This document shows, piece by piece, positions 33,063 to 63,120 of a DNA stretch of 64,000 bases. The notes beneath the pieces were generated by a model. It had not been told where the DNA came from. It made no database searches and was given only the letters and a program-made list of their open reading frames with translations. This DNA is from an uncultured Erythrobacter sp. (lineage in GTDB: Bacteria > Pseudomonadota > Alphaproteobacteria > Sphingomonadales > Sphingomonadaceae). The stretch is taken from positions 1 to 64,000 of the forward strand of contig CANKYZ010000001.1 in the NCBI GenBank assembly GCA_947488325.1, written 5' to 3'. Positions within the stretch are counted from its first letter, which is position 1. The number at the start of each line of letters is the position of its first letter. The position numbers and the translations under genes were made by a program.

Positions 33063-33785
33063 TCAAAAGCTGGATGCGACAGATATGATCGCAATGTCTA
33101 AACTTTGGGTGCCGTCCTCGCGTCGATCGAACTGATTGAGATAGCCTGCATTCAAGGACGTTCGTTCCGATAGATCGTAGCGAAGACCGAGGTAATTTCT
33201 CCACTGATCAAGTCCCCGTTCTCCGGAGGTGTTAGGATTATCCAGGTGAAAGTAAGGCTCGGTCCAGATTCTGAGCGAAGCATTTGAAGACAGGCCATAA
33301 CTGAAACTCACACGATTGCGCATACGAAGTCCAATTTCTCCGCTTGATCTGAAACGTTGCTCCAGTCGAGCACGCGAGGCGACCGAAATGGGAGACCCCG
33401 TATCGGTAAGCATAAACTCGACCTGCTGAAATGGGCGATACTCGACGGTATCGGCTGTGCGGGACTTCAAGGATCGGCGGTAGGCGAAACCACCACCGAC
33501 CGAAACACGTGGCGACAAGGCTTGGTCGACCAGAAAAGTAGCCGCTAGTCTATCGGATTCCCCTGTCTCAACCGGTGTCCGGAACTCCAATTGACCGGAA
33601 ACCGAGGTATCATCCGATAAATCTGTCCTGAGCGAAACGGAGGTCCATACTTGATCTTGCGCATGCAGGGGAACCGCGAGCCCGAGACTGCATAAGAGCG
33701 GCAACGAAATCCACAAAAGCGAAACAAGAATTTTCTCGCCGGAATTCGGTAAGCGAACCTGTGGAATCTTTGAATTCCCATGCAT
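33063..33785 (-). CDS. DUF2490 outer-membrane beta-barrel protein
   Basis: 240 residues from the ATG at 33785, with GAGGT upstream; a GTG two codons earlier is possible. A signal peptide (LLWISLPLLCSLGLAVPLHAQ) precedes a mature part made of alternating amphipathic strands (TSVSLRTDLSDDTSVSGQLEF, ASRARLEQRFRSS, WRNYLGLRYDLSERTSLNAGYL), as in DUF2490 barrels. It ends with a hydrophobic strand and Phe, the usual BAM signal. It is transcribed leftward from the region that holds a TTAAACGTTTAA palindrome at 33878, so it probably belongs to the purine regulon as an outer-membrane component. Function unproven. Confidence 0.75.
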   Translation of the reverse strand: MHGNSKIPQVRLPNSGEKILVSLLWISLPLLCSLGLAVPLHAQDQVWTSVSLRTDLSDDTSVSGQLEFRTPVETGESDRLAATFLVDQALSPRVSVGGGFAYRRSLKSRTADTVEYRPFQQVEFMLTDTGSPISVASRARLEQRFRSSGEIGLRMRNRVSFSYGLSSNASLRIWTEPYFHLDNPNTSGERGLDQWRNYLGLRYDLSERTSLNAGYLNQFDRREDGTQSLDIAIISVASSF

Positions 33786-33877
33786 GTGCACCTCAGCCTT
33801 CTAGGGCGGACGGCAAGGAACTCACCGTAGCCAGACCCACTTTTCACTTCCTTCAAATAGCCGAAAGAGCATCAAGC

Positions 33878-33889
33878 TTAAACGTTTAA
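33878..33889. promoter_or_regulatory. LacI-type operator, perfect copy
   Basis: TTAAACGTTTAA, a perfect palindrome with the central CG typical of LacI-family operators. It lies 92 bases before the DUF2490 ATG (minus) and 54 bases before the TTG of the YdcZ-type gene (plus), so it can control both divergent genes. Identical copies occur at 40839 and 61076. Confidence 0.7.
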
Positions 33890-33943
33890 TTTAGCCGAAA
33901 AGCACGCTAGAGGCGGCCCATTAAGACTAAGGGCAGACAGCAA

Positions 33944-34411
33944 TTGCATCACTCCATCATCCTAATTCTGTTAGGCATTCTCGTAGGCGCAAGCATTCCG
34001 CTTCAGGCAGCGGCCAATGCCAAGTTGGGCCAATCTCTTGGCCAGCCACTCTGGTCTGCTGCCATTGCCCTGTCCATCAGCGCGCTCGTGGCCTTTTGCG
34101 CGATTGCGATGACCCGCTCGCCACGTCCGCCCCTCGATACAGCGTTTCAGGTTCCGGCTTGGTGTTGGCTCGGGGGACTATCTGGAGCAGCGTTCGTAAT
34201 TTCTGGGATTTACCTGCTGCCTAAGATTGGTGCCGCTCAGTTCTTAGTTGCAACCGTAGTTGGACAGCTAATCCTAGCAGTTGTTATCGACCACAATGGC
34301 TGGCTCGGCGTGGCTACAAAACCAATCGAACTCAATCGTTTGATCGGTCTAGCACTAGTCCTTGTTGGAACGGCGCTGGTGGTATCGACACAGCCACAGC
34401 GATCAATCTAG
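33944..34411 (+). CDS. YdcZ/DUF606-type DMT membrane protein
   Basis: 155 residues, five predicted membrane helices: SIILILLGILVGASIPLQAAANAKLG, the family's characteristic first helix with an Asn-rich end, then PAWCWLGGLSGAAFVISGIY and ends LVLVGTALVVST. The start is a TTG; no ATG fits the first helix. DUF606 proteins belong to the drug/metabolite transporter superfamily and usually form small transporters of unknown substrate. Sharing a divergent promoter with an operator of the purine regulon suggests a role in moving a purine or pathway by-product. Convergent with the lacI gene, one base apart. Confidence 0.8.
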   Translation: MHHSIILILLGILVGASIPLQAAANAKLGQSLGQPLWSAAIALSISALVAFCAIAMTRSPRPPLDTAFQVPAWCWLGGLSGAAFVISGIYLLPKIGAAQFLVATVVGQLILAVVIDHNGWLGVATKPIELNRLIGLALVLVGTALVVSTQPQRSI

Positions 34412-34412
34412 A

Positions 34413-35438
34413 TCAGGCTGCCTGAACTCCAGACACACGTCCAGGAAACGATCTGCGTACAGCAAGCTTTACCGGCAAGACAACGTCGTCGATCTTTGCT
34501 TCGGGATTTTCCATCCGTCGATTGAGAAGCCCAAAGGCTTCTCTTCCAAGGTCGCTGAGAGGCTGCGAGATTGTCGTCAAAGGTGGGGATACGATGTCAG
34601 CAAACTGAATATCGCCGAAACCGGTTACCGCGATATCGTCGGGCACTTTCAGCCCGAGGGATGCAAGATAACGGATCGCCTCAATCGCGATCAAATCGTT
34701 TGGGCAAATTAAAACCTCAGCCTCAGATCTTGCCAGCCTGGCCAGAACGTTATCAGCAAGAGGTGGCGAGAAACTGTTTACCTCCTCCCAAACTACTTCA
34801 GCTTGCGGCCCAAGATTCTCGACAAATCCGTCTCGCCGAAGGGACGCTGACCTGAAATTTTCCGGTCCACGAACGAGCCCGACTTTCGTCCTCTCAGACT
34901 GATTGACCAAGCTCGCCAGCATTTTTCCTCCCACCCAGTGGTCGGAGGTGACCATATCGAATCCGTCAATTTTGGTGTCAACCAACACGGCGGGAACTGT
35001 GATGTCGGCAATCTTTTCACAATTTCCTGCATGTGAGGGCCACCAAATAATTCCGTCGACCCCTTGTTTCCCAAGACGATTGACCCCTTCGAGTTCTCGC
35101 TGACTATCCCCATCTGAATCGAACAAGAGAACACTCAGACCTTCGCTGCTCGCCGCTTGCTGGACTGCTTTTGCGAATTGCGGAAAGAACGGGTTACTCA
35201 GGTCCGGCAAGACCAGTCCGACTGTGTCCGTCTTTCCCGTCCGCATAGTTTGGGCGGACTTGCTTGGGCGGTATTGCAGCTTTTCGGCTACCGCTAATAT
35301 TCGCTCTCTAGTGGCGCGTCCGACACCTTCCCGACCGTTGAGAGCATAGGAAGCAGCGGCAATCGAAACATTAGCCTCACGCGCGACATCCTTGATTGAG
35401 GGCGGCTTGGTGCCAGTCTTCACCTTATTGTCCGGCAC
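34413..35438 (-). CDS. LacI-family repressor, likely regulator of the purine locus
   Basis: 341 residues. The N-terminal HTH reads PSIKDVAREANVSIAAASYALNG, with hinge RPSKSAQTMRTGKTDTVGL. A periplasmic-binding-protein-like effector domain follows (VLPDLSNPFFPQFAKAV, GVDGIIWWPSHAG, then CPNDLIAIEAIRYLASLG and VTGFGDIQFADIVSPPLTTI). It is the only LacI-type gene in the window. Five palindromes of the kind LacI proteins bind lie in promoters of the surrounding genes, so I infer it represses the locus and is released by a nucleoside, purine or pentose phosphate. No copy of the site lies before its own gene. Confidence 0.9.
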   Translation of the reverse strand: MPDNKVKTGTKPPSIKDVAREANVSIAAASYALNGREGVGRATRERILAVAEKLQYRPSKSAQTMRTGKTDTVGLVLPDLSNPFFPQFAKAVQQAASSEGLSVLLFDSDGDSQRELEGVNRLGKQGVDGIIWWPSHAGNCEKIADITVPAVLVDTKIDGFDMVTSDHWVGGKMLASLVNQSERTKVGLVRGPENFRSASLRRDGFVENLGPQAEVVWEEVNSFSPPLADNVLARLARSEAEVLICPNDLIAIEAIRYLASLGLKVPDDIAVTGFGDIQFADIVSPPLTTISQPLSDLGREAFGLLNRRMENPEAKIDDVVLPVKLAVRRSFPGRVSGVQAA

Positions 35439-35536
35439 TCTCTGCTTCTCCCTACGTCCAAGTCTTTTGTCGAATCACTCTAGGTGCAGAGTTTAGATTC
35501 TGGAAGGCCGCGAGACGAAACTCGACGTAAGAGACG

Positions 35537-36775
35537 CTACACCAAGAACATAAGTCCAGCCAGAGCGGCGCTCATAAGATTCGCCAGACTTCCCGCTAGC
35601 AATGCACGCAAGCCAAGCGACGCGACGTTGGCTCGCTGACTAGGTGCGAGTCCGCCGAGCACTGCAAGCTGGATTGCAATCGAACCAAAGTTTGCAAAAC
35701 CGCACAGAGCAAAGGTTGCGACTATGACTGATCCTGGCGAGAGGGTTTCACGAATTTGGGCCAAATCGGCGAATGCAACGAACTCGTTCAATACAACCTT
35801 TGTCCCGAAAAGTCCGCCAACCGTCGCTGCCTCGTCCCAAGGCACGTTGAGCAAGTACATAACAGGAGCGAATAGGGTGCCGATTACCTGCTGAAAGCTG
35901 AGATCTGGATAACCAAACCAGCCACCGATACCTCCCAAAAGCCCATTACCAAGAGAGACCAGTGCAACGAATGCTAAGACAAGCGCTCCGACAGCTGCGG
36001 CTATCTTGAGACCCGTTTGCGCTCCTTCCGCGGCAGCCATGATGATGTTTGCAGGCTTGTCCTCTTCGTCCACTCCGTCGAGGTCGACTTCTGGGTCCTT
36101 ACCAAGTGCATCGGGTTCATCTGGGACAATGATCTTTGCCATCATGATACCACCGGGCGCAGACATGAAACTAGCTGACAGCAGGTATGGAAGAATGTCC
36201 GTTCCGAGCACAGCGGCATAAGCAGCCAATATCGTCCCTGCCACGCCTGCCATGCCGACCGACATCATCACGAAAAGCTGTGACCGGGTCATGTTGGAAA
36301 TGTAAGGCCGAACCACGAGCGGAGACTCGCTCTGCCCTACGAAAATATTGGAGGCCGCAGCAAGCGATTCCACTCGTGAGATACCGGTAATGGCCTGCAG
36401 TGCCCCGCCCACCCATTTGACGATAAATCCCATCACCTTGAGGTAATAGAGGATTGATATCAGAGTTGAGAAAAAGACAATGGCTGGGAGGGCAGCAATA
36501 GCGAAGCTCAGTCCTCCCTGATCTGCACTCGCGAGGTTGCCGAACACGAAATCCACGCCGGCTTGCGCATGACCAAGAAGAGCAGCAACGGCGCTTGCCA
36601 TTGCAAGCACCACAGATTTGCCAAGCTCGGTACGCAGCACCAGAAACCCGATCGTGGCTTGGAGGGCGAAAGCCGCAAGGATCACTCGCAGTCTGATCGC
36701 TTTTCGGTCAACTGACGCCAGAACGGCAATACAAAAAATCGCAAGAATGCCGGCTAGGCTGATTAAACTTTCCAA
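35537..36775 (-). CDS. Concentrative nucleoside transporter (NupC/CNT family)
   Basis: 412 residues, about ten hydrophobic segments. Family marks include LPAIVFFSTLISILYYLKVM, IFVGQSESPLVVRPYI (the nucleoside/Na+ site region GQSESP), GMAGVAGTILAAYAAVLG, the S-x-PGGIMMAK segment, and FALCGFANFGSIAIQLAVLGGL near the C-terminus. CNT proteins import nucleosides with Na+ or H+. Lying next to the repressor gene, and upstream of phosphatase and receptor genes on the same strand's other side, it is the inner-membrane step of the uptake route. No operator copy was seen in its own upstream region. Confidence 0.92.
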   Translation of the reverse strand: MESLISLAGILAIFCIAVLASVDRKAIRLRVILAAFALQATIGFLVLRTELGKSVVLAMASAVAALLGHAQAGVDFVFGNLASADQGGLSFAIAALPAIVFFSTLISILYYLKVMGFIVKWVGGALQAITGISRVESLAAASNIFVGQSESPLVVRPYISNMTRSQLFVMMSVGMAGVAGTILAAYAAVLGTDILPYLLSASFMSAPGGIMMAKIIVPDEPDALGKDPEVDLDGVDEEDKPANIIMAAAEGAQTGLKIAAAVGALVLAFVALVSLGNGLLGGIGGWFGYPDLSFQQVIGTLFAPVMYLLNVPWDEAATVGGLFGTKVVLNEFVAFADLAQIRETLSPGSVIVATFALCGFANFGSIAIQLAVLGGLAPSQRANVASLGLRALLAGSLANLMSAALAGLMFLV

Positions 36776-36887: not shown

Positions 36888-38432
36888 TTAACCCTGCTCG
36901 ATGCCGTAGCTTCCATAGGGAATGTTGATGTCGCGCAGGGCGCTGGTCTTTGCGTCAGGGACAAGAACGCTATCCACTTTTCGCGCTTGGGCGGAAAAAC
37001 TGTTTCGTGTCACGTCGCATAGAAGATAGCCGTTCGCCCGGTTTTCAAAATAGAACGGTTGACCAAGACCATTGTAGAAAATGGTTTCGCTCTCGTGGCG
37101 CCCATCCCCCCCACCACCGGACGAAATGGCTGCGCATACGACTTCACTGGCCAACGCAGCTCCTTGCCCCTCACCCCGGACTTCACTGGCGAAGAAAGCA
37201 TGGATGTCCCCGCCGAGAAAAACCGTGTGACTATCAGGTCGGGATGCCACCAAATCGCACAGGCGACTTCTAGCCTGCGGATAGGCGCCCCAGCGATCCG
37301 AGTGATAACTCGCGACGCCTTCGTGTTGTCCATAGTAGGTGTTGAGCTGAGTCGTTTGGGCTATCAGGTTCCACCTTGCACCTGCAATACCAAACCCTCT
37401 TTCTAACCAGCGCTCTTGCTGCGCTCCAAGAAGGGTTCTTGCCGGGTCATCCGAAGGGCAGCTAACCCAAGTCGGAAACTGACCATCAGGCTCCGGGCAG
37501 GGGTGCGGGCTGCGAAATTGACGCGTGTCAAGCTGGTCTAGTTGCACCAGATCGCCGAAAACGGAGCGTTGGTATAACGCCATTGGCGAACGATTGAAGA
37601 TTGCCCGCTTGCGGAGCGGCATATGTTCGTAGAATGCTTGAGAGGCAGCGCGGCGTTTCTGCTCGATCTGCTCGGCTGAAAATCCAGCAAGCGGCTGGCC
37701 TGGCTTGTAGTCGTCCCAGACCTCATGATCGTCCCAAATGACAAGCCAAGGCGCAGCGGCATGCGCCCTTTGCAAGCTCGGATCGAGTTTTGCAGCGAAG
37801 TGCAGAGCTCTGTAATCATCCAGAGTATGTGGGGCAGAGACCGGGACCCTGCGTGTCGGCGAGGCCCAAGGCTCCTCATAGATGTAGTCCCCTACATGAA
37901 GAACAAAGTCGGGTCGTTGTGCTGCCACATCAGCATAGGCACCAAAGTAGCCGTCTCCGTAGCTTTGACACGAACAAAGCGCGAAGCGAAGCCTATCAAG
38001 TCGAGAGCCAAAAGGAGGAGCTGTTCTTGCCGCGCCGACCGGACTTTCCGCGTCTCGAAACAGGAAACGATAATAGTATTGAGCTCCCGCACGAAGCCCA
38101 CTGACCTCGACGTGCACAGAGTGTGCTAGAGACCTTGCGGCAAATTGCGTTCCCTTTGCCACGATCGTGCGAAAGGATGCATCAGTCGCAACCTCCCACG
38201 ACACCCGCACCGACTTGTCCTCAACTGCGTGTGCGGTGCCACCCGGGAAGATGCGTGTCCAGATGACGAACCCATCCGGCAGGGGATCACCGGACGCCAC
38301 CCCAAGCAAAAAAGGGTAATCACCATCGAAAACGGAGCCTAATTCCCGAGCATGGGCTTGTGAAATCAATGAGGGTGCACAGGCAATAGCTGCCAAGGCC
38401 CCTGTCAAGGCTGTCCTTCTATTAGTTTGCAT
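36888..38432 (-). CDS. PhoD-family alkaline phosphatase/phosphodiesterase, Tat-exported
   Basis: 514 residues. A twin-arginine signal (TNRRTALTGALAAIACAPSL) is followed by the PhoD N-terminal domain (FLLGVASGDPLPDGFVIWTR). The metallophosphoesterase core contains FVLHVGDYIYEEPW, VIWDDHEVWDDYKPG and VFLGGDIHAFFAS. PhoD enzymes hydrolyse phosphate mono- and diesters outside the cytoplasm with Fe/Ca. Placed directly downstream of the TonB receptor gene, it would dephosphorylate nucleotides or cleave nucleic-acid pieces to nucleosides for the CNT transporter. This role is inferred from context. Confidence 0.9.
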   Translation of the reverse strand: MQTNRRTALTGALAAIACAPSLISQAHARELGSVFDGDYPFLLGVASGDPLPDGFVIWTRIFPGGTAHAVEDKSVRVSWEVATDASFRTIVAKGTQFAARSLAHSVHVEVSGLRAGAQYYYRFLFRDAESPVGAARTAPPFGSRLDRLRFALCSCQSYGDGYFGAYADVAAQRPDFVLHVGDYIYEEPWASPTRRVPVSAPHTLDDYRALHFAAKLDPSLQRAHAAAPWLVIWDDHEVWDDYKPGQPLAGFSAEQIEQKRRAASQAFYEHMPLRKRAIFNRSPMALYQRSVFGDLVQLDQLDTRQFRSPHPCPEPDGQFPTWVSCPSDDPARTLLGAQQERWLERGFGIAGARWNLIAQTTQLNTYYGQHEGVASYHSDRWGAYPQARSRLCDLVASRPDSHTVFLGGDIHAFFASEVRGEGQGAALASEVVCAAISSGGGGDGRHESETIFYNGLGQPFYFENRANGYLLCDVTRNSFSAQARKVDSVLVPDAKTSALRDINIPYGSYGIEQG

Positions 38433-38504: not shown

Positions 38505-40799
38505 TCAGAACTTGAATTCGGCTTCGACGCCCCAAATCCGGGGATCGTTGACGAAACCTGTAAGGTTGTTGAAATCGATCCCACCAATCAGATTTTCTTC
38601 ATTGGTCAAGTTCCGCACAAAAGCAGCGATTTCAAAGCCATTGTCAAAATCGATGTATCCAGCGCGAAGGCCGACCTCGAAGTTGCCATTCACTTGGAAT
38701 TCTTCTGATTCATAAAGGAAGAAGTTGGTACGGCCGAGACGACTATAATCACCGAAGAGATATATCTCGCCGCCGCCAACCGGAATTGCATAACGTCCAG
38801 TTGCAGTCAGAATTGTGCGAGGAGCCTGCGGGAATGGATTTCCGTCGATTGATGCACGCGTTGTTGTACCAACGGTCACCAGTGGATCCGTCACCGTACA
38901 ACCCCCTCCGCAGGGTGCGACTAATAGATCGGCATCCTTGATTTCAGTGTCGTTAAAACTGTATCCGAGCGACAAGTCGAGGTTGTCGACTGGGCTGAAA
39001 TCGATATCGAGTTCAAAACCCTTACCGACACCCTTGTCCGCATTGATCAACTGGTTGAAGTTGCCAAGGCCGCCAATCGCCGTGAACTGCTGGTCGTCAA
39101 CTTCATAGTAGAAGCCCGCCAGATTGATTCTTAGCGCATTATCGAGCAATGCCGCTTTAACACCGACATCGAAAGAAATGACGTCTTCACTGTCCGCTAT
39201 CGTGACATTATTGCTGAATGTCAGCCTGCCCTGTATCGAGGGCCCTCGGAAACCTGTGGCAACGCGTGAGAACAGAGTAACGCCGTCACTGATTTCATAG
39301 TTTAAAGCCAAATCCCAATTGATTGAATCGTCTTGCGTTCTGGCTTCAGCATTAATCGGGCCAAGGAACCCCAAAGGACGCGTACCACGAAATACCTTCC
39401 GTTCGTCAGAATAACGAACACCGCCGGTTACGGTCAGCGCGTCAGTAAGATCATAGCTCAGCTGACCAAAAAATGCGTATGCCTCGCTTTGCTGCGTCGT
39501 AATGGCAATGATTGTTGGATCGGGACCGGCTGGCGTATTGATTGAGATGCTGTCCGCCGTAAATTCGTCCCAGAAATAAAAGGCTCCAACTTGCCAATTC
39601 AGCGGACCACTTCCACTGCTCGAGACTCGGAACTCTTGGGTAAATTGCTCGACGTCAGTGTCTGAACTGCCGGTTTCGGATGGGAACGGAATAAAACCGG
39701 GAAACGATCCTGACGGCAAAAATCCCGCACCGACACCGCCATCAATATCGCCAATGCCATCGCTGTCGCCTACATAGTAGCCACTCACCGAGGTCAGAAT
39801 AACGCTGCCTGTATCTAGCTCATTACGCCAAGTGGCGCCAAAGATTTCGGTATTGGATTCATTGTTCCGGCCGCCGTCAAAGGCAACCTCAAAACGATCA
39901 AAATTGTCGTTCAATTCGTTCGAGCCCGGCGACAAAATGTTTGCCCGGAAAAGCGTCGTTGTGCCTTTGAGGCGCTGATACTGGAAAGTTAGGAGAGAAG
40001 AAAAGTCGAGAGCAGTGTCAGGTTCGAACAGCAAATGCGAACGCAATGCGACTGACGAGAAACCGCCCAGGTCAGGATCGCCATCATTGTTGCCAGCAAA
40101 GTCAGCACCAGGATTAACGTTCTCCACAAAGTCCGAACGGCGCGTGAACTCACCGGCCACACGAGCCGACAGGCTGTCGCTCAATGGTCCGCTCAGCGCC
40201 GCATTAAGCTTTACTGAGTCGAAGCGGCCATAGGATCCTGAGACATACCCCTCGAAAGACTGGGTCGGCTTCGCCGTATCGAATTTTACGATGCCGGCAG
40301 GCGTGTTTCGACCAAACAACGTCCCCTGCGGCCCGCGCAAAATCTCCGTTTGCGCGATGTCGAATATTGGGAAACCTTTCAGCAAGACGTTCTCTAGCAC
40401 TACCTCGTCCGAAATAATCGAGACCGGCTGCGAGGCAGATAGGTCGAAGTCGACGTTACCCAAGCCACGAACGTAGAACCTTGGTGCCGTGCGGCCACTC
40501 GAACCCTCGACATAAAGGCTAGGGACCCGCGCCGAAAGACCACGAATGTCAGCACCAGCATCGAGGATGGAAGAGAGCTTTTCCTCTGAAACCGTCGCAA
40601 CGGAAATCGGAACGTCGAGAATACTCTGCGCACGCTTTTGGGCCGTGACAATGATTACCCCGGAATCTTCTGGATCACCTTGTTCAGCTTCCGCACTTGG
40701 TTCGGCGTTCTGGGCCGATGCTGGATTAACCAGCCCAGCCGTCATCATCAATGCAGCAGCGCAAGATGAATATTTCAACACAGCAGTTCTATGAGACAT
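38505..40799 (-). CDS. TonB-dependent outer-membrane receptor
   Basis: 764 residues from the ATG at 40799, which has GGGAGGAA just upstream; a start eight codons earlier is less likely. A signal peptide (AALMMTAGLVNPASAQ) precedes the TonB-box/plug region (GVIIVTAQKRAQSILDVPIS, then LYVEGSSGRTAPRFYVRGLG, LRGPQGTLFGRNTPAG). A 22-strand barrel ends in the usual terminal Phe (WGVEAEFKF). The family takes up large or scarce solutes with energy from TonB. A perfect operator copy 39 bases upstream ties it to the purine regulon, so its substrate may be nucleotides or oligonucleotides rather than siderophores. No siderophore genes are near. Confidence 0.92.
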   Translation of the reverse strand: MSHRTAVLKYSSCAAALMMTAGLVNPASAQNAEPSAEAEQGDPEDSGVIIVTAQKRAQSILDVPISVATVSEEKLSSILDAGADIRGLSARVPSLYVEGSSGRTAPRFYVRGLGNVDFDLSASQPVSIISDEVVLENVLLKGFPIFDIAQTEILRGPQGTLFGRNTPAGIVKFDTAKPTQSFEGYVSGSYGRFDSVKLNAALSGPLSDSLSARVAGEFTRRSDFVENVNPGADFAGNNDGDPDLGGFSSVALRSHLLFEPDTALDFSSLLTFQYQRLKGTTTLFRANILSPGSNELNDNFDRFEVAFDGGRNNESNTEIFGATWRNELDTGSVILTSVSGYYVGDSDGIGDIDGGVGAGFLPSGSFPGFIPFPSETGSSDTDVEQFTQEFRVSSSGSGPLNWQVGAFYFWDEFTADSISINTPAGPDPTIIAITTQQSEAYAFFGQLSYDLTDALTVTGGVRYSDERKVFRGTRPLGFLGPINAEARTQDDSINWDLALNYEISDGVTLFSRVATGFRGPSIQGRLTFSNNVTIADSEDVISFDVGVKAALLDNALRINLAGFYYEVDDQQFTAIGGLGNFNQLINADKGVGKGFELDIDFSPVDNLDLSLGYSFNDTEIKDADLLVAPCGGGCTVTDPLVTVGTTTRASIDGNPFPQAPRTILTATGRYAIPVGGGEIYLFGDYSRLGRTNFFLYESEEFQVNGNFEVGLRAGYIDFDNGFEIAAFVRNLTNEENLIGGIDFNNLTGFVNDPRIWGVEAEFKF

Positions 40800-40838
40800 T
40801 TCATTCCTCCCCAAGGCTTCCATACGACCAAACTTTAG

Positions 40839-40850
40839 TTAAACGTTTAA
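40839..40850. promoter_or_regulatory. LacI-type operator, perfect copy
   Basis: TTAAACGTTTAA located 39 bases before the ATG of the TonB receptor gene on the minus strand, where it would overlap or flank the promoter. On the other side lies the end of the adenosine kinase gene, so only the receptor (and phoD downstream) would be affected. Confidence 0.7.
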
Positions 40851-40906: not shown

Positions 40907-41917
40907 CTAGGCCACACGAATGTCGGAGCCTCCGTGCGTCGTTAGTCTCTTAAGGTCCGTTTCAGGGCGAGGTCCAAAATGGCTTATCGCCTCAGAGGCA
41001 CAGAGCGTTCCGATACGCAAACACTCTCGGATTGTTGCACCTCTCAAGAGCCCCGACAAGAATCCTGCGGCAAACAGATCTCCCGCGCCTGTTGTGTCAA
41101 CAACGGTTATGTCCTTGTCGGCAGGAACACTTTCGACCTCACCTTGGCGCAAACAAGTCGCTCCGCTCTCGCCATCTGTGCCCACGAGCACTGGGACTAG
41201 CCGCGCCAACTTCCGCAACGCCTCTTCAAATGTGCCCGTCTGTGCCATTGAAATCGCTTCGAGCCGATTGGCGAAGAGGATCGAAATTTTTTCCGCTTGC
41301 AAAAGCCCTTCGAACTCATCACGATATCGCCCAACCACAAACGCATCCGATAGCGTCAACGCGACTTGGCAATCGTGCGCTAGTGCGAATTCTATGGCAG
41401 CATTCATTGCCGGCCGCGCTTCATCCGAATCCCACAGATAGCCCTCAAGCAGTAGAATGCGCGACGCTTTGATAGCGTCTTCATTGATGGCTTCGGTCGG
41501 TAGGGTTTGAGATGCGCCGAGAAACGTATTCATCGTCCGCTGACCATCGGGCGTCACCAAAATCAAGGAATGCGCCGTCGGCTTCCCATCAATTGCTGGC
41601 TCCACTGTGTATTTTACGCCAGATGCGCGAATGTCATGCGAAAACACGCGTCCCAACTGATCGTTAGCCACCTGACCTACGAATGAGCATGAATGACCAA
41701 GATGGGCAAGACCAGCGATTGTGTTCGCGACTGAGCCCCCACTAAGCTCTCTAGCAGGCGCCATTCTGTCATAGAGTTCCTCTGCTCTCGATGCGTCGAT
41801 CAGTTGCATAGATCCTTTGGCGAGACCCTCTGCCTGTAAGAATTCGTACGTCGATTGGGCGATGACATCAACAATCGCATTCCCAATGCCTATCACGTCA
41901 AGTTGCTTCTCAATCAT
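40907..41917 (-). CDS. Adenosine kinase (PfkB family)
   Basis: 336 residues. It transfers phosphate from ATP to adenosine to give AMP. PfkB signatures are IGIGNAIVDVIA at the N-terminus, SGGSVANTIAGLAHLG, and the ATP/anion-hole motif VDTTGAGDLFAAGFL with the catalytic Asp. The overall pattern (DVIGIGNAIVDV, NTFLGAS) is of bacterial adenosine kinase rather than ribokinase. It lies 36 bases after the AMP nucleosidase gene and is read with it. The pair makes adenosine kinase followed by AMP cleavage, giving adenine and ribose-5-phosphate. Confidence 0.88.
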   Translation of the reverse strand: MIEKQLDVIGIGNAIVDVIAQSTYEFLQAEGLAKGSMQLIDASRAEELYDRMAPARELSGGSVANTIAGLAHLGHSCSFVGQVANDQLGRVFSHDIRASGVKYTVEPAIDGKPTAHSLILVTPDGQRTMNTFLGASQTLPTEAINEDAIKASRILLLEGYLWDSDEARPAMNAAIEFALAHDCQVALTLSDAFVVGRYRDEFEGLLQAEKISILFANRLEAISMAQTGTFEEALRKLARLVPVLVGTDGESGATCLRQGEVESVPADKDITVVDTTGAGDLFAAGFLSGLLRGATIRECLRIGTLCASEAISHFGPRPETDLKRLTTHGGSDIRVA

Positions 41918-43459: not shown

Positions 43460-43576
43460 TATTGTTCGTCCTTCATTTTTTGCCGCGGACGGCCGCGTTT
43501 TTTCATTTGGTTGCAAAATATCTCCCGAACCCGTTGGTCGGGTCGGCGCGGTAAGTTGACATCTATTTCTATTTAC

Positions 43577-53082: not shown

Positions 53083-53083
53083 C

Positions 53084-55134: not shown

Positions 55135-55997
55135 TGGCGAGCCAGCCAGCAGAAAGTGTTCAAAGGTCCGATCGCTATTTGGGCATCCCTGATAGCGTCA
55201 AATCCTTTGGCAACTTGACGCTGGATTTTGTAGCAAAACAGGGACGAACCCAGCTTCAAAAGGAACATCAGTCGGGTTGTCTTCGAGCGCGTATGATCAA
55301 GACCGCAACCCAAGGATGGCCTACTTTGGCGACCATTAACACTGCGGGCGGTTTGACCGGCGGTGACCATCTGAAACAAACCCTTTTTTGGCAGCGCAAT
55401 GCCGAGGCGTGCGTGACTTCGGTTGCGGCAGAAAAAATCTATCGCTCACAATCAGGCAAAGCTCGAATTTGCACGCATATCTCCGTCAGTTCAGGCGCTT
55501 CTGCAGAGTGGCTGCCTCAGGAAACCATACTGTTTGACGGCGCTCATCTCGACCGAGAGCTTGAGGTACATCTTGATGGAGAAGCCAATTTCGTCGGCTG
55601 CGAAGCCATCGTTTTTGGCAGATTAGCTCGAGGTGAAAGCCTGCGGACGGGCTCCATTTGCGAACAGCTTAAAGTCTTCCGTGATGGCGAGTTGATCCTC
55701 TTTGATCGCACGCAGCAGTCAGGCGCCTTGAACGCCTGGTTGGATCGCAATTCGTGCGGGGCAGCCAACCGGGCCAGCGGCACGATTGTCATCGCGGCAT
55801 CAGAGCCGGGAGAGAAGCTCAAAGAACTGCGCGAGGCTTTGAGCGATGCCCAGGGGCTGGTTGGCGCGACGCTTGTTCGCGGCCTGGTGCACGCGCGTTT
55901 CCTTGCCAAGACTGATTGTGCGCTGCGCCACGACATGAGCCTTGCTCTGATTGCAGCTCGCGGCGGTCATGACCTTCCTCGTAACTGGAGTTGCTGA
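55134..55997 (+). CDS. ureD: Urease accessory protein UreD
   Basis: 287 residues. It acts with UreF and UreG as scaffold for nickel delivery to apo-urease. Visible marks are [47 protein letters not shown] and the [23 protein letters not shown]-terminal region. It is the first urease gene, following the adenine deaminase by overlap, so urease is part of the purine operon rather than an independent unit. Confidence 0.93.
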
Positions 55998-55999
55998 CT

Positions 56000-56302
56000 A
56001 TGAGACTGTCGCCCAGAGAGAAAGACAAAATGCTTATCTCGGTTGCAGCCATGGTTGCGCAGCGGCGCCTGGAGCGTGGCGTCAAGCTGAATCACCCTGA
56101 AGCCATCGCGCTGATTTCGGATTTCGTTCTGGAGGGCGCGCGAGATGGCACTAGCGTGACAGACCTCATGGAAGCGGGTGCGAAAGTCTTGACGGTTGAT
56201 CAGGTGATGCCGGGAATCGCGGAAATGATCCACGATGTTCAAGTTGAAGCCACGTTTCCCGACGGCACCAAGCTTGTAACCGTCCACAGGCCGATCCGAT
56301 GA
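56000..56302 (+). CDS. ureA: Urease gamma subunit
   Basis: 100 residues from the ATG at 56000; a TTG three codons upstream is less likely. The sequence [20 protein letters not shown], with [20 protein letters not shown], is standard for UreA, and the end is [11 protein letters not shown]. With UreB and UreC it forms the (alpha-beta-gamma)3 holoenzyme that splits urea. Overlaps ureB by four bases. Confidence 0.96.
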
Positions 56303-56607
56303 TTCCGGGACAGCTGATCCCTGCCAACGGGCATCTGGTGCTCAATGCCCGTAGTGATGCCGTGCAGGTGACCGTCTGTAATCTTGGCGATCGCCCGGTT
56401 CAGGTGGGCAGCCACTACCATTTCGCTGAAGCGAATGCGGGTCTCGATTTTGACCGTGCCAAAGCCTGGGCGTGTCGTCTGGATATCCCAGCAGGCTCAG
56501 CCGTTCGATTTGAGCCGGGGCAGACGCGCGAAGTCGATCTGGTGCCTTATGCGGGCGATGAAATCGTGTGCGGTTTCAGGGGATTGACCAGAAAGGAACT
56601 GGGCTGA
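56299..56607 (+). CDS. ureB: Urease beta subunit
   Basis: 102 residues. [37 protein letters not shown] and [17 protein letters not shown] are the usual UreB elements. The stop overlaps the ureC ATG by one base. The subunit carries no metal and stabilises the trimer. Confidence 0.96.
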
Positions 56608-58317
56608 TGCCGTTCAAGATATCGCGCCATGACTACGCGCATATGTTTGGCCCCACAAAAGGCGATCGGCTACGGCTCGCGGATACCGAACTCATCATCG
56701 AGATCGAGAGCGATGCGACCGTCTATGGCGATGAAATCAAGTTTGGTGGCGGCAAGGTTATCCGTGACGGAATGGGCCAGAGCCAACGAACCAACGCTCA
56801 AGGTGTTGTCGATACCGTCATTACCAACGCTGTCATCATTGACCATGACAAGGTGATCAAAGCAGACATCGGTATCAAAGCCGGGCGGATCCACGCAATT
56901 GGCAAAGCGGGTAATCCCGATACACAACCGGGCGTCGAAATCGTCGTCGGACCGGGCACTGATGTCATCGCAGGCGAAGGCAAGATCGTGACTGCCGGGG
57001 GGGGTCGATTGCCACATCCACATGATCTGTCCGCAACAGGTGGACGAAGCGGTAGCAAGCGGGATCACAACCTTTGTTGGAGGCGGCACTGGGCCGTCTA
57101 CCGGAAGCAACGCCACGACGTGCACGCCGGGACCCTTCCATATTGAGCAGATACTGCGCGCGGTTGACGGGCTGCCGATCAATTTTGCGATTGTCGGCAA
57201 AGGTAACAGCAGTCGGCCTGAAGCGCTCATCGAGCAGATCGAGGCCGGGGCAACTGCGCTCAAACTGCACGAAGATTGGGGCACGACACCTGCCACAATC
57301 GATTGCTGTCTCACAGCTGCCGATGATCACGATGTGCAGGTTATGATCCACACCGATACCCTCAATGAAAGCGGTTTCGTCGACGACACAATCGCCGCGT
57401 TTAAGGGGCGCACGATTCACGCTTTTCATACCGAGGGCGCTGGCGGTGGGCACGCGCCCGACGTCATCAAGCTGGCAGGCCTATCCCACGTCATTCCCTC
57501 GTCGACTAACCCGACACGGCCCTTCACCGTCAATACGATTGAAGAGCATCTCGACATGCTCATGGTGTGCCATCACCTCGACCCCTCTATTGCAGAGGAC
57601 ATTGCTTTTGCAGAAAGCCGCATTCGCAAGGAGACGATTGCGGCCGAGGACATCTTTCACGATGTCGGCGCGATATCGATCATCTCTTCCGACAGTCAGG
57701 CGATGGGCCGTGTCGGCGAAGTGATTACACGCACGTGGCAGACTGCCGACAAGATGAAACGGCAGCGTGGTCAGCTCGAAGGCGAGACTGGCGATAATGA
57801 CAACCTGCGGGTTCGACGGTACATTTCCAAATACACGCTGAACCCGGCTATCGCCCAAGGGTTGTCGGCCGAGATCGGATCGGTTGATATAGGCAAGCTT
57901 GCCGACCTCATCGTGTGGGATCCCGCCTTCTTTGGGGTCAAACCTGATCTGGTTATCAAAGGCGGAACCATCAGCTTTGCCGCTATCGGCGACCCCAATG
58001 CCAGCATACCAACACCGCAACCGGTGCATGGTCGGCCCATGTTCGGGATGTATGGCAAGGCGCTATCCAGCTCATCGCTCACATTCGTCTCACAGGCTGC
58101 ATTCGGCGGTGGAGTAAAACAAAGGTTATCGCTGGAAAAAGACGTCGTTGCCGTGAGCAAATGCCGAGATATCGGCAAGAAAGACATGATCTTAAACGAT
58201 ACCCTCCCAGAAATCGACGTAGATCCCGAAACTTACGAAGTGCGCATGGACGGCGAGCTTGCGACTTGCGAGCCGGCGAACGTCGTTCCGATGGCCCAAC
58301 GTTATTTCCTGTACTGA
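56607..58317 (+). pseudogene. ureC: Urease alpha subunit with a one-base frameshift in a G run
   Basis: Catalytic subunit, 569 residues if one G is removed. As given, an ATG at 56607 opens [20 protein letters not shown] and continues in frame to residue ~131, where eight Gs (56997-57004) put the reading off frame and stop it at 57146. With seven Gs it reads [16 protein letters not shown], placing the nickel ligands His136 and His138, and goes on in the frame that is open to 58317. The rest is complete: carbamylated Lys in [32 protein letters not shown], the Asp ligand in SSDSQAMGR, and PMAQRYFLY end. All genes around are intact, so sequence error or phase variation is as likely as true decay. 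Confidence 0.9.
56997..57004. repeat. Eight-G homopolymer inside ureC
   Basis: A run of eight Gs in codons just before the first two nickel-ligand histidines. Seven Gs restore the ureC frame exactly. Runs of this length are prone to slippage in replication and to miscounting in sequencing, so the site could switch urease on and off or be an artefact. Confidence 0.85.
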
Positions 58318-58320
58318 GCT

Positions 58321-58806
58321 ATGACCGAACCCACTCTCATCAGCGCCATTGTTGAAAACGCATTCCAAGCCGGTGACAGTGTTGCGCTCGATTACGATGC
58401 TCGCAGCAAGCGCCGCGCGGTTTGGACCACAGCGAGCGGTAAGAAAATTCTGCTCGATCAGGAGCGACCCACAACACTTCGATCTGGTCAGGGCTTCGAG
58501 CTACCTGACGGCTCGGTCATAAGGATTGAAGCGGCTGAAGAAGACCTCATCGCCATCGCGACACCAAGCATTGAGCTTCTGACACAACTGGCGTGGCATC
58601 TCGGAAATCGGCACTTACCCACTCAGGTAATAGCTAGCATTGATGGGGTTAGCCTCCATATTAGGGCCGACCACGTCATCGAGGAAATGGTCGTAGGGCT
58701 TGGCGGGCAAACTCGCAAAATTCGGGCTGGTTTCGATCCTGAGCGCGGAGCCTACGCTCGTGTTGCGCAGCATAAAGATCATCAGAATGGTCATGCGCAT
58801 GGCTAA
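58321..58806 (+). CDS. ureE: Urease accessory protein UreE
   Basis: 161 residues. Nickel metallochaperone with an N-terminal domain (DYDARSKRRAVWTTASGKKILLDQ) and a C-terminal metal-binding domain with LTQLAWHLGNRHLPTQV, containing the conserved His. It ends [11 protein letters not shown], a short His-containing tail rather than the long polyhistidine tail of some enterobacteria. Starts three bases after ureC. Confidence 0.92.
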   Translation: MTEPTLISAIVENAFQAGDSVALDYDARSKRRAVWTTASGKKILLDQERPTTLRSGQGFELPDGSVIRIEAAEEDLIAIATPSIELLTQLAWHLGNRHLPTQVIASIDGVSLHIRADHVIEEMVVGLGGQTRKIRAGFDPERGAYARVAQHKDHQNGHAHG

Positions 58807-59530
58807 TCAAACAGATGATCGAAGCTGGCTCTACAGCATTCTCAGTTGGATGTCGCCCTCTTGGCCAATTGGCGCTTTTGCCTATTCGAGCGGGCTCGAA
58901 TGGGCTCATGAAGCGGGCTGGCTTAATGATGCCAATGCGGTGGCGGAATGGATCCGCGATAGTCTCGACTGCGGTAGTCTGTCAGCGGATGCCGCCTGTT
59001 TTGTCCGATGCTTTAAACCATTGGATGGAAATGCTGGTGCTGTCGAGTTCAAAGAACTGGCTACTTTTTCGCTTGCTGCTCAAATTTCGCGAGAACGCTC
59101 CATTGAAACGACTGCGCAGGGCGATGCTTTCCGCGCGATCGCCATAAACGCTAACAGGCAGGTGCACCCCGGCAAGATCGCCGCCTATGAACGGGCGACA
59201 AGCAGCATCGAAAAGGGAAAACTGCCCTATCCGGTAGCAGCTGGCGCCTTGTTCGCTATTTTTAGAATTCCAGAAGAAGCGGCGCTTCTGTCTTTCCTGC
59301 ATGCTGCGGTTGCCAACCTATTGTCAGCTTCCCAGCGCATCGTGCCGCTAGGACATACCGATACTCAAGTCCTTGCCTCTACCTTGCAGCATGACGTCCA
59401 GCACGCCGTCGACACCAGTCTCGAACGGCGCTTACTCCCCATAGAACAGGCATTCGCAAGCGCCAATCTCGCCGCTGAAATTGCCTGTATCCAACATGAA
59501 ACGCAATACACGAGGCTTTTCAGGACATGA
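58799..59530 (+). CDS. ureF: Urease accessory protein UreF
   Basis: 243 residues from the ATG at 58799, overlapping ureE by eight bases; in-frame ATGs at 58793 and 58787 are alternatives. The UreF pattern is [24 protein letters not shown] at the start, then [14 protein letters not shown] and a C-terminal end typical of the family ([16 protein letters not shown]). It joins UreD and UreG in the nickel-loading complex. Stop overlaps the ureG ATG. Confidence 0.93.
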
Positions 59531-60162
59531 CCAACAAGAGGCTCTCACCACTCAGAGTGGGGATCGGCGGTCCCGTCGGAACGGGCAAGACCGCGCTTAT
59601 GGACGCCCTTTGTAAACGGCTCCGCAATCAGCTCGAAGTCGCCGCCATTACAAATGACATTTATACCAAAGAGGATGCAGAGTTTCTGCTTCGTGCAGGC
59701 TCCCTAGCAGCAGACCGTATCGTGGGTGTTGAAACAGGTGGTTGTCCCCATACGGCGATCAGGGAAGATGCATCGATGAACCTTGCGGCCGTCGAGGACA
59801 TTACCGCTCGCCATGATGGGCTCGACCTCATCCTCATTGAAAGCGGCGGAGACAATCTGGCCGCGACATTCAGCCCGGAATTGGCTGACCTCACAATCTA
59901 CGTCATTGATGTGTCGGCGGGCGACAAAATTCCCAGAAAGGGTGGTCCGGGTATTACACGGTCGGATCTTCTCGTCATCAACAAGACCGACCTTGCGCCC
60001 TTGGTGGGAGCGGATCTGGACGTGATGGACCGGGATGCCCGGCGCATGCGTGGTCAGCGGCCATTTGTGTTTGCGAACATCAAAGCGGGAACTGCTGTTG
60101 AGGAGATTGCTAATTTCCTCATCGAAAACGGCGGCCTGCCAATTGAAGGAGACGACTTGTGA
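59527..60162 (+). CDS. ureG: Urease accessory GTPase UreG
   Basis: 211 residues. SIMIBI-type GTPase that drives nickel transfer. P-loop [30 protein letters not shown], the nickel-binding CPH in [35 protein letters not shown] and the specificity motif NKTDL are all present. Stop overlaps the GTG of the HupE-like gene. Confidence 0.96.
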
Positions 60163-60551
60163 AGAAGCTGACGCCAATGAAAACTGGGGCGACGATTGCC
60201 TTGCTCACCATGTCGGCAAGCGGGGCTGCGCATGAAGGTCATCATCTAGCTGATCATGCTCTTATGAGCGGACTCTTACATCCTCTCACCGGTATTGAGC
60301 ATCTTGTCGGACTTCTGGGTTTAGGCAGCGTGATTGGGGTTGCGAGCGCGATACGGTTGCGAGAGGAATCATATCTGCTCCCGATGCTGCTACTCTCAGT
60401 GGCTTGTCTTGTACTGTCACTGGGTAAGGCCAATGGGGCCTTTGCTATCGGCTTCTTTGCGTCAAGCCTCTTGCTGTCGGGCGTTGCATACGCGCTTGGA
60501 AGATTCCTGACCGAGAAGGGTTCAGATTGGCAACAATCCCGCAAGTTCTGA
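60159..60551 (+). CDS. Short HupE/UreJ-like membrane protein
   Basis: 130 residues from a GTG overlapping the ureG stop. A signal sequence ending [11 protein letters not shown] is followed by [20 protein letters not shown], the HupE/UreJ nickel-permease motif (HPLxGxxHL). The family usually has about 190 residues and a further His-containing helix region (GHAHG); here the protein ends after about four helices, with a charged tail. It may be a shortened nickel permease or one that has lost its last part. Its 3' end overlaps the convergent ureidoglycolate lyase gene by 30 bases. Confidence 0.7.
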
Positions 60552-61046
60552 TTCTTCAATACACACTTTCTGATCATCGAGGAGGAGCACCTCCTCGCAG
60601 TCTTCTTCTCGTGCAACTCGGTCGATAACGAGGAAATCGCTCATCTCGCCGAGCGCCAAACAAAAGTGGTGCCAAGTGCCAGCGGAAAACTGGATACCCT
60701 GAGTGCCCTTCGCAGCGAATATGCGAATGCCATCGCTATCAAGATCGCCAGCAGGTGCGACGACCACCAGAAAGGGATTGCCGCTGAGTGGTACAAAGGT
60801 TTGCGAACCCTGCCGATGCCTTTCCATTGCCTCGACGATGAAAGGCATGGAGCGTGGTTTGGCACGGTAAATATGGATTGCCGGGCGGCCTGACGCGCGC
60901 CCGCAATCAGGCCGCGCAAGTTCTGCAAACTTTAGACACGTGCCGTTGTTGATGATTGATGCGGACGATTCATCGCCAGCTTCAATCACGTCCCCAAAGG
61001 GGCGAAACGCATCATCTGTCAACTGCTCTACGGGAACTGCCTTCAT
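60522..61046 (-). CDS. allA: Ureidoglycolate lyase
   Basis: 174 residues. It breaks ureidoglycolate into glyoxylate and urea. AllA marks are VEQLTDDAFRPFGDVIEAG, INNGTCLKFAEL, MERHRQGSQTFVPLSGNPFLVVVA and FSAGTWHHFCLALG. The ATG at 61046 has GAGG upstream, and an operator copy lies 29 bases before it. It is the only allantoin-pathway gene on the minus strand at this end, divergent from transketolase and convergent with the urease operon. Confidence 0.93.
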   Translation of the reverse strand: MKAVPVEQLTDDAFRPFGDVIEAGDESSASIINNGTCLKFAELARPDCGRASGRPAIHIYRAKPRSMPFIVEAMERHRQGSQTFVPLSGNPFLVVVAPAGDLDSDGIRIFAAKGTQGIQFSAGTWHHFCLALGEMSDFLVIDRVAREEDCEEVLLLDDQKVCIEESELAGLLPI

Positions 61047-61075
61047 CTACTCTGCCTCTTTCCAATCAATCTTGC

Positions 61076-61087
61076 TTAAACGTTTAA
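61076..61087. promoter_or_regulatory. LacI-type operator, perfect copy
   Basis: TTAAACGTTTAA in the divergent gap between allA (minus, 29 bases to ATG) and the transketolase gene (plus, 38 bases to GTG). Its presence ties pentose-phosphate metabolism to the purine regulon. Confidence 0.7.
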
Positions 61088-61125
61088 TCAAAGCTAGGCC
61101 AGAGAGAATTCTGAAAGGAGTAAGG

Positions 61126-63120
61126 GTGGAAAAAGCCGAACAATCTCTGACTGAAATGGCGACCATGTTGCGGGTGCTATGCGCCGATATGGTCGAAAAT
61201 GCCGGATCGGGCCATCCCGGTATGCCCATGGGCATGGCGGATGCAGCGACCGTACTGTTTGCAAACCATCTCAGATTTGACCCGCAAAACCCGCAATGGG
61301 CTGCTCGCGATCGGTTTGTCCTTTCTGCAGGGCACGGATCGGCGCTTATCTACGCACTACTTCACTTGATCGGTCTTCCAGAGATGGGCCTTGAGCAGTT
61401 GCAGACGTTGCGTCGGAAAGGCAGCCTTACACCTGGACACCCTGAGCACGGCCACACAGCAGGGATCGAATGCACTACGGGCCCTCTTGGCCAAGGCTTC
61501 GCGACGTCCGTTGGTATGGCGATCTCTGAAAAAAAGCTCCGCGCTGAGCTAGAGTCCGACATCGCATCGCATCGCGTCTTCGCTATCGCAGGGGATGGCT
61601 GCCTGATGGAAGGCATTAGCCATGAAGCGGCCGCGCTTGCTGGTCACTTACAACTCGACAACCTCACGGTCTTGTTCGACGACAACTCCATTTCCATCGA
61701 CGGAAAGATCTCGATCACGTCCTCGGAAGACGTTCTGTCACGCTTTACTTCTTATGGATGGAACACGATCAAAGTTGATGGGCATTCCCAGCCGTCGGTC
61801 AATCAGGCGCTTCTTCAGGCCAAAGATGCATGTCGACCTACCCTGATTGCCTGCAAAACCAAAATTGGGTTTGGCGCACCGACTAAAGCCGGCAAAGCTG
61901 CCATTCATGGTGCCCCGCTAGGGCCAGATGAAGTGACCGGACTACGAAAACTCGTAGGCTGGGAATCAGAACCGTTTCATCTCCCCAGCAGGCTTCTGGA
62001 AATGTGGCGCGAAGTAGGGCGTCGCAACACAAATTTGCATCGAGATTGGCAGAGCCGCCTAACTGCCGAGAACGGCGAGGTTCGCTCTCGCCTTAAGGCT
62101 ATTGAACAGGGGGAGTTGCCTGCTCTCTCAACGGAGGCTGTCGAATCGCTGCGCACCGTAGCTTTGGCACAATCAGATCCGCAAGCGACACGAGTATCGT
62201 CCAAGAACGCGCTCGAAAGCATCGTCCCTGGAATGCCTTCGCTTGTTGGAGGTTCGGCTGACTTGAGCGGATCGAACGGCACAAGAACGGATCATCACTC
62301 GGACTTCAGCAACGAAATTAGGTCAGGCAACTATATCCGTTACGGCGTGCGCGAACACGCTATGGCCGCAATAATGAACGGTATAGCTCTGTCCGGGGCA
62401 TACACACCCTATGGCGGAACGTTTCTGGTGTTTAGCGACTATTGCCGCCCAGCGATCCGCTTGTCAGCCCTAATGCGGCTTCGAGTGATCTACGTCTTCA
62501 CGCATGACTCCATCGGTTTGGGTGAGGACGGACCGACCCACCAACCCGTTGAGCATCTGGCCAGCCTGCGCCTGATTCCGGGTCTACAGGTCTTGCGGCC
62601 TGCAGACGCCGTCGAGGTCGCCGAATGCTGGGAGATGGCACTCAACAGTGACGGGCCGACCGCCTTGGTTTTGTCTCGCCAGAATCTCCCTCAGTTCCGC
62701 GTTCATGCAGATAAGAACCTTAGCGCCAATGGAGCCTATCGAGTTGCCTCGTGCCAAGAGCCTGCGGATGTGAGAATTTTTGCAAGCGGGTCCGAAGTCC
62801 ATTTGGCGATAGAGGCCGGAGAACACCTTATGAAGAAAGGGGTCAAAACCGAGGTCTTTTCGGTTCCTCGTCTCGACCGTGTGGCCCGCTCCGATTCCGG
62901 GCAATCAACACTCAAGGCACCGCCCGCGCTCCAAGTCGCGATCGAGGCTGGGTTGCCAGATCCTTGGCGACCGATTGTCGGAGATGAAGGCTTGATCTTT
63001 GGCGTCGATCATTTCGGTGAATCCGCGTCCGCCGAAGAGCTCTTTGAGCAATTCGGACTGACACCCGAGCAGGTCGTCGCAGGGATACAGAATCATCTAA
63101 TTTCAAAGGTACAAAAATGA
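61126..63120 (+). CDS. tkt: Transketolase of the purine locus
   Basis: 664 residues from a GTG at 61126 with AAGGAG five bases upstream; earlier in-frame codons lie in the operator region. ThDP-dependent transfer of two-carbon units between sugar phosphates. Signatures are [81 protein letters not shown] and [21 protein letters not shown]. With ribose-5-phosphate from AMP nucleosidase as input, its place in this regulon makes sense. The stop overlaps the next gene's ATG (ATGA). Confidence 0.95.

Follow-up and report, generated by a model that had tools for sequence, protein, structure and literature searches.

A predicted adenosine nucleotide utilisation regulon carried by an integrative and conjugative element in an uncultured Erythrobacter

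Results

An uncultured Erythrobacter sp. (GenBank assembly GCA_947488325.1) carries, in the first 64 kb of an 867-kb contig (CANKYZ010000001.1, here C1) of its 3.27-Mb genome, a cluster of genes predicted to take in adenosine and its nucleotides and to break them down to ammonia and intermediates of central metabolism. This 64,000-nucleotide stretch (the window; higher coordinates are those of the contig) was examined using Pfam and NCBIfam profile cut-offs and a mechanical list of open reading frames (ORFs), with some gene starts chosen by eye. A sequence-only reading had described positions 33063 to 63120 as a self-contained purine-nucleotide utilisation locus governed by one regulator. The purine enzymes that it named are all found at the expected positions in the profile scans, and the gene content of a self-contained unit is borne out, but its limits have to be redrawn. 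The unit shared with a second genome of the genus spans ~33877-66303 of the contig (~32.4 kb), running past the end of the window, and its right part, beyond position 63120, includes TalC, malate synthase G and a 129-amino-acid ORF. The DUF2490 outer-membrane-barrel-like protein at the left (33063-33791, minus strand; Pfam), which has an operator upstream, falls outside the shared block.

The left part of the unit encodes a YdcZ-type DMT transporter (33944-34411, plus strand; profile match), followed on the minus strand by a LacI-family, RbsR-like regulator (34413-35438), a NupC-type concentrative nucleoside transporter (35537-36775), a PhoD phosphatase/phosphodiesterase (36888-38432), a TonB-dependent receptor (38505-40823), a PfkB-family kinase (40907-41917) and an AMP nucleosidase (41954-43516). 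The regulator, PhoD, the receptor and the kinase pass Pfam cut-offs only, and NupC matches its Pfam models and falls slightly short in NCBIfam (418 of 442 bits). The kinase is named after its best solved match, 3ubo (298 bits), which was deposited as an adenosine kinase, and the AMP nucleosidase passes both its NCBIfam model (710 bits, cut-off 307) and TIGR01717 (652 bits, cut-off 365). On the plus strand lie a DUF2608 HAD-type phosphatase (43637-44566), whose DxDxT motif and start were recognised by eye, and a purine phosphoribosyltransferase family protein (44545-45123; Pfam). Judged likewise by eye, PhoD and the HAD protein both have N-termini resembling export signals, twin-arginine-like in PhoD and signal-peptide-like in the HAD protein.

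The genes for breakdown of the purine ring occupy the centre of the unit in a divergent arrangement. Transcribed to the left are HiuH (hydroxyisourate hydrolase, 51138-51503), XdhA (FAD/Fe-S subunit, 49678-51132), XdhB (molybdopterin subunit, 47360-49693), the xanthine dehydrogenase accessory protein XdhC (46339-47394) and a PuuD-type urate oxidase (45146-46339), and to the right PuuE allantoinase (51623-52537), UraD (OHCU decarboxylase, 52537-53082), allantoicase (53057-54100) and a predicted adenine deaminase (54103-55134). The latter operon continues with the urease genes, encoding UreD (55134-55997), UreA (gamma subunit, 55991-56302), UreB (beta subunit, 56299-56607), a frameshifted UreC (alpha subunit, 56568-58317), UreE (58321-58806), UreF (58700-59530, mechanical ORF start), UreG (59527-60162) and a UreJ/HupE-type protein (60159-60551). 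AllA (ureidoglycolate lyase, 60522-61046, minus strand; Pfam, 177 bits) faces a plus-strand group of transketolase (61126-63120, with the mechanical ORF opening at 60940), a TalC/FSA-type transaldolase (63117-63773; profile match) and malate synthase G (63770-64000 and on to contig 65893; profile match), which adjoins the 129-amino-acid ORF (contig 65883-66272; ORF call). To the right of this ORF come a LysR gene and then conjugation genes. NCBIfam cut-offs are passed by XdhA, XdhB, XdhC, HiuH, PuuE, UraD, allantoicase, AMP nucleosidase, the adenosine-deaminase-family protein and transketolase, and Pfam cut-offs alone by PuuD, AllA, the urease subunits and UreD, UreE, UreF, UreG and UreJ; XdhA, XdhB, XdhC, HiuH, PuuE, UraD, allantoicase and the adenine deaminase also have Pfam matches. 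A second transketolase, 50% identical, is encoded on contig C9, so the locus gene is a second copy in this genome.

Several of these identities required closer comparison. PuuD has the make-up of its type, in which Urate_ox_N precedes a cytochrome-like domain: it scores 417 bits against Urate_ox_N and 19.7 bits against the haem-binding Pfam model (cut-off 27 bits), with a CxxCH motif present (in QQHCTSCH), and its nearest named relative among the matches listed is from Novosphingobium (66% identity). NCBIfam names the family of the deaminase adenosine deaminase. Among solved structures it lies nearest to the 3ou8/3pan/3pao/3pbm group (422 bits, compared with 356 for 3rys and 122 for 6n9m), which we take to be Pseudomonas aeruginosa PA0148. 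The title of a reference cited in PMC6281700 states that Pa0148 'catalyzes the deamination of adenine', and the earlier label of adenine-deaminase type proves right. No guanine deaminase, nucleoside phosphorylase or purine-base permease was detected among the module genes scanned. The lack of a guanine deaminase and a base permease there suggests that the module is best read as centred on adenosine; nucleotide and purine breakdown genes are present as had been claimed, and their scope appears narrower than purines in general.

Five palindromes lie before the main operons and are predicted operators. O1 (TTAAACGTTTAA, 33878-33889) precedes YdcZ, as well as DUF2490 in the opposite direction, and forms the left edge of the shared block. 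O2 (40839-40850) precedes the operon of the receptor, PhoD, NupC and LacI; O3 (TTAATCGTTTCA, two mismatches, 43577-43588) lies between AMP nucleosidase and the HAD phosphatase, whose ATG was taken at 43637; O4 (one mismatch, 51564-51575) separates HiuH-XdhABC-PuuD from the PuuE-UraD-allantoicase-adenine deaminase-urease operon; and O5 (61076-61087) lies between AllA and transketolase-TalC-malate synthase, upstream of the start taken for transketolase. Allowing at most two mismatches, TTAAACGTTTAA occurs five times in the window compared with 1.05 expected, a number reached in none of 100 shuffles. When the entire genome was searched with CTTAAACGTTTMA, one mismatch being allowed, nine rows were returned, comprising the places of O1 to O5 and a sixth at C1:510244. 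Five of the six places thus fall within 1% of the genome (~6e-10) and all five are intergenic where 2.1% of module positions are (~4e-9), figures that presume independent sites and the chosen gene starts, O3 and O5 lying inside mechanical ORFs and upstream of the likelier starts. A sigma-70 scan found six sites, fewer than the 10.7 in shuffled sequence. The 98 bp upstream of the LacI gene hold no palindrome, and this gene may also be read from a promoter of its own.

The palindromes are predicted to be bound by the LacI-type regulator, which recurs in few genomes. Relatives (E <=1e-65) are found in seven of 396 genomes of the order, its own included, and near the six others the palindrome TTAA[AT]CG[AT]TTAA occurs 2, 2, 1, 0, 5 and 0 times, compared with means of at most 0.01 and a maximum of 1 in first-order simulations (100 per neighbourhood). 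Kinases adjoining three of these relatives match ribokinase TIGR02152, two over the cut-off and one slightly under, and an MFS transporter and a TonB receptor are also present at two of the three loci. We infer that this clade reads a common operator and senses ribose or a nucleoside.

To follow the inheritance of the locus, we turned to PuuD, which is encoded in two of 199 sampled genomes of the family and two of 114 of the genus, its own included in both counts. The second genome of the genus, G290, was compared over 120 kb, and positions 33877-66303 align to G290 1212751-1245167 as a single collinear block of 32.4 kb at 94.5% identity, which is the only match of C1:1-180000 within the compared region. 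The 12-base cores of O1 to O5 are all identical in G290. Chromosomal DNA of the window (12000-31000) matches G290 at 69-79% identity over long matches, and synonymous divergence (dS) for eight of eight chromosomal genes runs from 1.44 to saturation (an antisense ORF pair at 24593-25150 having been removed from an initial nine). Module genes have a median dS of 0.15 (28 gene intervals), and the ratio of nonsynonymous to synonymous divergence (dN/dS) is at most 0.37 in the 28 of 31 intervals for which it was computed, the phosphoribosyltransferase, XdhB and transketolase being excluded as their mechanical intervals contain a gap or stop in G290. A collinear block with all five palindromes, set against chromosomal dS of at least 1.44, indicates that the unit was inherited whole, by transfer; on these comparisons it was recently acquired by one or both species, with its genes retained under selection. 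The prospect that relatives would hold the cluster as several unrelated units of no shared inheritance is contradicted by this complete copy. The receptor gene stands well above the module median with a dS of 0.72 against G290, though its dN is 0.03, and may have been exchanged through recombination with a further copy of the module.

The two copies sit in different mobile settings. The G290 copy has two tyrosine recombinases on one side and a DUF2924-recombinase pair on the other, close to tRNA-Thr. The two tyrosine recombinase genes bordering it are adjacent and overlapping (L140:88-2492), and perhaps encode the agent that moved the module. No second module was found in the neighbourhoods from three other genomes (G041, G175 and G032), and a further genome (G164) has the PuuD core with the deaminase only. 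In the Erythrobacter studied here the module is, by sequence, carried on a 76-kb integrative and conjugative element (ICE) inserted in tRNA-Gly(GCC). A 50-bp exact direct repeat of the tRNA 3' end forms attL (31495-31544) and attR (contig 107417-107466), and a tyrosine integrase (31731-32996, plus strand; Pfam Phage_integrase and Arm-DNA-bind_3) begins ~187 bp from attL, near the element's end. Between the repeats lie this integrase, the module, TrbI, CagX, VirB8, TrbL, CagE/TrbE, a T2SSE ATPase and a T4SS-DNA_transf coupling protein, and the element also encodes a DUF3363 relaxase, RepA and ParB (by profile scan, the Trb genes being taken as a group). The element may still be able to transfer. 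In eight of eight genomes of the genus the tRNA-Gly is intact beside a neighbouring thioredoxin-TPR gene, and no element ends were detected within the 1.2 kb seen beyond it. The G+C content is 63% in the Trb region, 54.5% in the module and ~55% in the adjoining chromosome. Taken with the recombinases in G290, this ICE implies that the same cargo occupies two different mobile contexts.

Some features around and within the element are of separate interest. The tRNA-Leu at 30577-30663 was considered as a target of integration and rejected: further matches to its 3' end (26 bases, three mismatches at most) occur on contigs C9 and C3 alone, and tRNA-Gly is indicated by the 50-bp repeat; no empty site was seen at the tRNA-Leu flanks in six relatives. 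Directly behind tRNA-Leu, positions 30670-31131 hold an integrase-like fragment (Phage_int_SAM_5), probably the remnant of another element. The chromosomal neighbours of the element (28699-30528 and contig 107727-108665) lie 77 kb apart on opposite strands in this genome, but in eight of eight relatives they share a strand and are separated by 174-193 kb; this change of strand and distance indicates that the chromosome was rearranged, with one breakpoint close to the left end of the element. Within the element, contig positions 85886-88734 (L003:5886-8734) encode a 5-hmdU DNA kinase helical-domain protein and then a MazG_C protein, domains known from phage DNA hypermodification, and the pair could protect the element's DNA.

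Discussion

We propose, with a probability of roughly 80%, that this locus is a self-contained, horizontally moving regulon for the use of adenosine and its nucleotides as a source of carbon and nitrogen. Gene families, palindromes, block inheritance and the anatomy of the element are read from the DNA itself, and to these we add as predictions the protein that binds the palindromes, the substrate, flux and inducer, and present-day transfer. The chemistry is that established for the gene families concerned. Nucleotide material would be carried into the periplasm by the TonB receptor and relieved of its phosphates by PhoD and the HAD phosphatase. NupC would then take in the nucleoside for conversion to AMP by adenosine kinase, and AMP nucleosidase would cleave AMP to adenine and ribose 5-phosphate. 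In this place one would usually expect a nucleoside phosphorylase or hydrolase; the route via a kinase and AMP nucleosidase would give ribose 5-phosphate directly, to enter central metabolism through transketolase and TalC. Adenine deaminase would form hypoxanthine, XdhABC urate, and the PuuD-HiuH-UraD-PuuE-allantoicase-AllA sequence would yield glyoxylate and two urea; urease would release ammonia, and malate synthase G would join glyoxylate to acetyl-CoA. The locus has genes to use each end product: ribose phosphate would go to transketolase and TalC, glyoxylate to malate synthase G and urea to urease. A single LacI repressor of the RbsR-like clade is expected to occupy all five operators until a ribose- or nucleoside-type signal frees it. 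Control by one regulator, as claimed by the sequence-only reading, agrees with five palindromes of the predicted LacI type before the main operons, and the receptor would belong to the regulon through co-regulation.

Several observations weigh against this proposal. A reversed control pattern returned 15 rows genome-wide, compared with nine for CTTAAACGTTTMA, so that the palindrome count is not high and was dropped as evidence, leaving the clustering to speak; the sixth place falls within an ORF; and the search pattern was derived from O1 itself, which makes the chance figures optimistic. The regulator passes no curated LacI cut-off, remaining under every NCBIfam cut-off shown (best match RbsR NF047341, 200 bits compared with 382), and two of the six neighbourhoods of its relatives have no palindrome while another has just one. 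The phosphoribosyltransferase interval contains a 1-bp gap in G290. Receptor homologues (E <=1e-60) are encoded in 53 of 199 genomes of the family, its own included, and in 21 of 21 family neighbourhoods, drawn from the 52 others, the homologue (41-48% identity) lies away from module genes, one of the neighbourhoods ending 2.5 kb off at a contig end. Finally, ureC is broken in this assembly at a run of G near 56998, giving the two ORFs 56568-57146 and 57022-58317.

The break in ureC puts the claimed breakdown to ammonia, CO2 and glyoxylate in doubt at its final step, the enzyme set being otherwise present. The corresponding place in G290 is unbroken and this frameshift is the only indel relative to G290 between 55134 and 60551, which would suit a real pseudogene in a locus that ends in urea in this strain. 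We regard this as possible but rather doubtful, as sequencing errors are frequent in homopolymer runs and the remaining urease intervals have dN/dS of at most 0.31; assembly error and mutation both fit the break.

The weakest point of the proposed regulon is the substrate of the receptor, for which nucleotide material is our inference. The case for such a role is one of co-regulation, its gene lying behind O2; belonging to the receptor family was not accepted as an argument for uptake of nucleotides, given the 21 neighbourhoods without another module gene. Instead, the receptor might import something other than a mononucleotide, such as an adenosine-containing cofactor, oligonucleotides or a metal complex, in which case the substrate of the locus would be narrower. 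In keeping with this, its best NCBIfam match, below the cut-off, is a siderophore-receptor subfamily, its homologues in the 21 family neighbourhoods are not near module genes, and mononucleotides normally cross porins. We consider this alternative unlikely, if still a serious one, since two Caulobacter loci have a receptor homologue between PuuD and a nucleoside hydrolase, and an 8.8-kb contig of another family (L157; its genome scored 6% contaminated) has one beside relatives of LacI and the adenine deaminase. Two plasmid records with the receptor (H16 and H17) have no annotation and no other module gene.

It is improbable that the locus is a nitrogen-scavenging cluster under nitrogen-status regulation, in which the nitrogen of the purine ring is the point and the ribose and glyoxylate genes are incidental. 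Urease genes and a complete ureide pathway are indeed present, and in one Caulobacter and two Phenylobacterium loci similar HiuH-XdhABC-PuuD-AllA and PuuE-UraD-allantoicase sets adjoin urease. However, transketolase, TalC and malate synthase G have a palindrome of this type before them and were transferred together with the other genes, and the LacI relatives adjoin ribokinase-type kinases. Chance accretion of unrelated catabolic pieces on a mobile element, as might be suggested by their separate occurrence elsewhere (among the best 80 PuuD loci, AMP nucleosidase at one, a receptor above 600 bits at two, NupC and PhoD at none), is hardly credible given the common palindromes, the gene order kept in two species in different mobile settings and the purifying selection.

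Beyond an adenosine regulon that moves, we would wager at even odds on a stronger formulation, that of a transmissible 'adenylate-utilisation island': the conjugative element would confer every step by which external adenosine nucleotides become ammonia, malate and pentose-phosphate intermediates. Nucleosides would be phosphorylated before cleavage, which would make AMP nucleosidase a dedicated catabolic enzyme, and the whole would answer to a repressor of ribose type and not to a purine sensor. If true, this would offer a testable catabolic role for AMP nucleosidase, would predict one clear phenotype for deletion of a regulator with five operators, and would bear on purine cross-feeding among microbes.

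Known systems resemble parts of this locus. Alphaproteobacterial purine/ureide clusters (Phenylobacterium, some Caulobacter and Parvularculaceae loci) share the enzymes and much the same divergent layout. Unlike the present locus, they are without NupC and PhoD and, with one exception, without AMP nucleosidase within 10 kb of PuuD, as judged from the best 80 of at least 585 confirmed PuuD loci, which reach at most 10 kb to each side (several contigs being shorter), so that a transketolase at the distance seen here could not show; the scan may omit genomes very near the window's own. On one Caulobacteraceae contig (L079), AMP nucleosidase and an adenine-deaminase relative lie close to PuuE-UraD-PuuD, which may represent an incomplete precursor of the adenylate route. 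For Acinetobacter, modules leading from urate to glyoxylate have already been published on conjugative plasmids; in the available part of that report, plasmids such as pA297-3 and pCl107 carry hpxO, hiuH, uao, puuE, alC and allA as mobile genes along with a tsx channel, to which a figure legend adds a urease module and other purine genes (PMC10117892). These differ in using HpxO rather than PuuD and a plasmid rather than an ICE, and the same part of the report does not name adenosine kinase, AMP nucleosidase, adenine deaminase, a TonB receptor or ribose and glyoxylate assimilation genes (PMC10117892). In SAR11 and other ocean bacteria, operons for purine breakdown comprise XDH, hiuH, uraD, puuE, alc and ugl, and a figure legend lists CNT, DMT and phosphoribosyltransferase genes with them; the main text contains neither 'TonB' nor 'mobile', and places urease in ~5% of SAR11 genomes (PMC11698098). 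Among the matches listed in the open-licence PMC literature, only such partial analogues were found, and no whole adenosine-to-central-metabolism regulon on an ICE.

The likeness to a polysaccharide-utilisation locus that had been drawn for this cluster holds for its working, with an outer-membrane receptor, exported trimming enzymes, an importer, intracellular breakdown and one regulator, for a predicted nucleotide substrate. It does not extend to the components: neither a SusC/SusD pair nor a glycan-active enzyme was found among the scanned genes, the receptor scoring 24 bits against the SusC/RagA model (cut-off 368) and PuuE with its polysaccharide-deacetylase fold being an allantoinase by NCBIfam. 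The element itself resembles catabolic ICEs such as ICEclc and Tn4371-like elements in having its integrase close to one of its ends, together with att repeats, transfer genes of the Trb type, RepA/ParB and catabolic cargo. Tn4371-like ICEs have a trb set with RepA and ParB on a common backbone; RepA, ParB and Trb genes were identified here, which makes the element at most a candidate for that group. It would differ in its target, tRNA-Gly(GCC), and in its cargo for natural nucleotides. If the proposed regulon is real, one species could pass to another, in a single step, a complete programme of nucleotide use with its regulation, much as happens with xenobiotic pathways.

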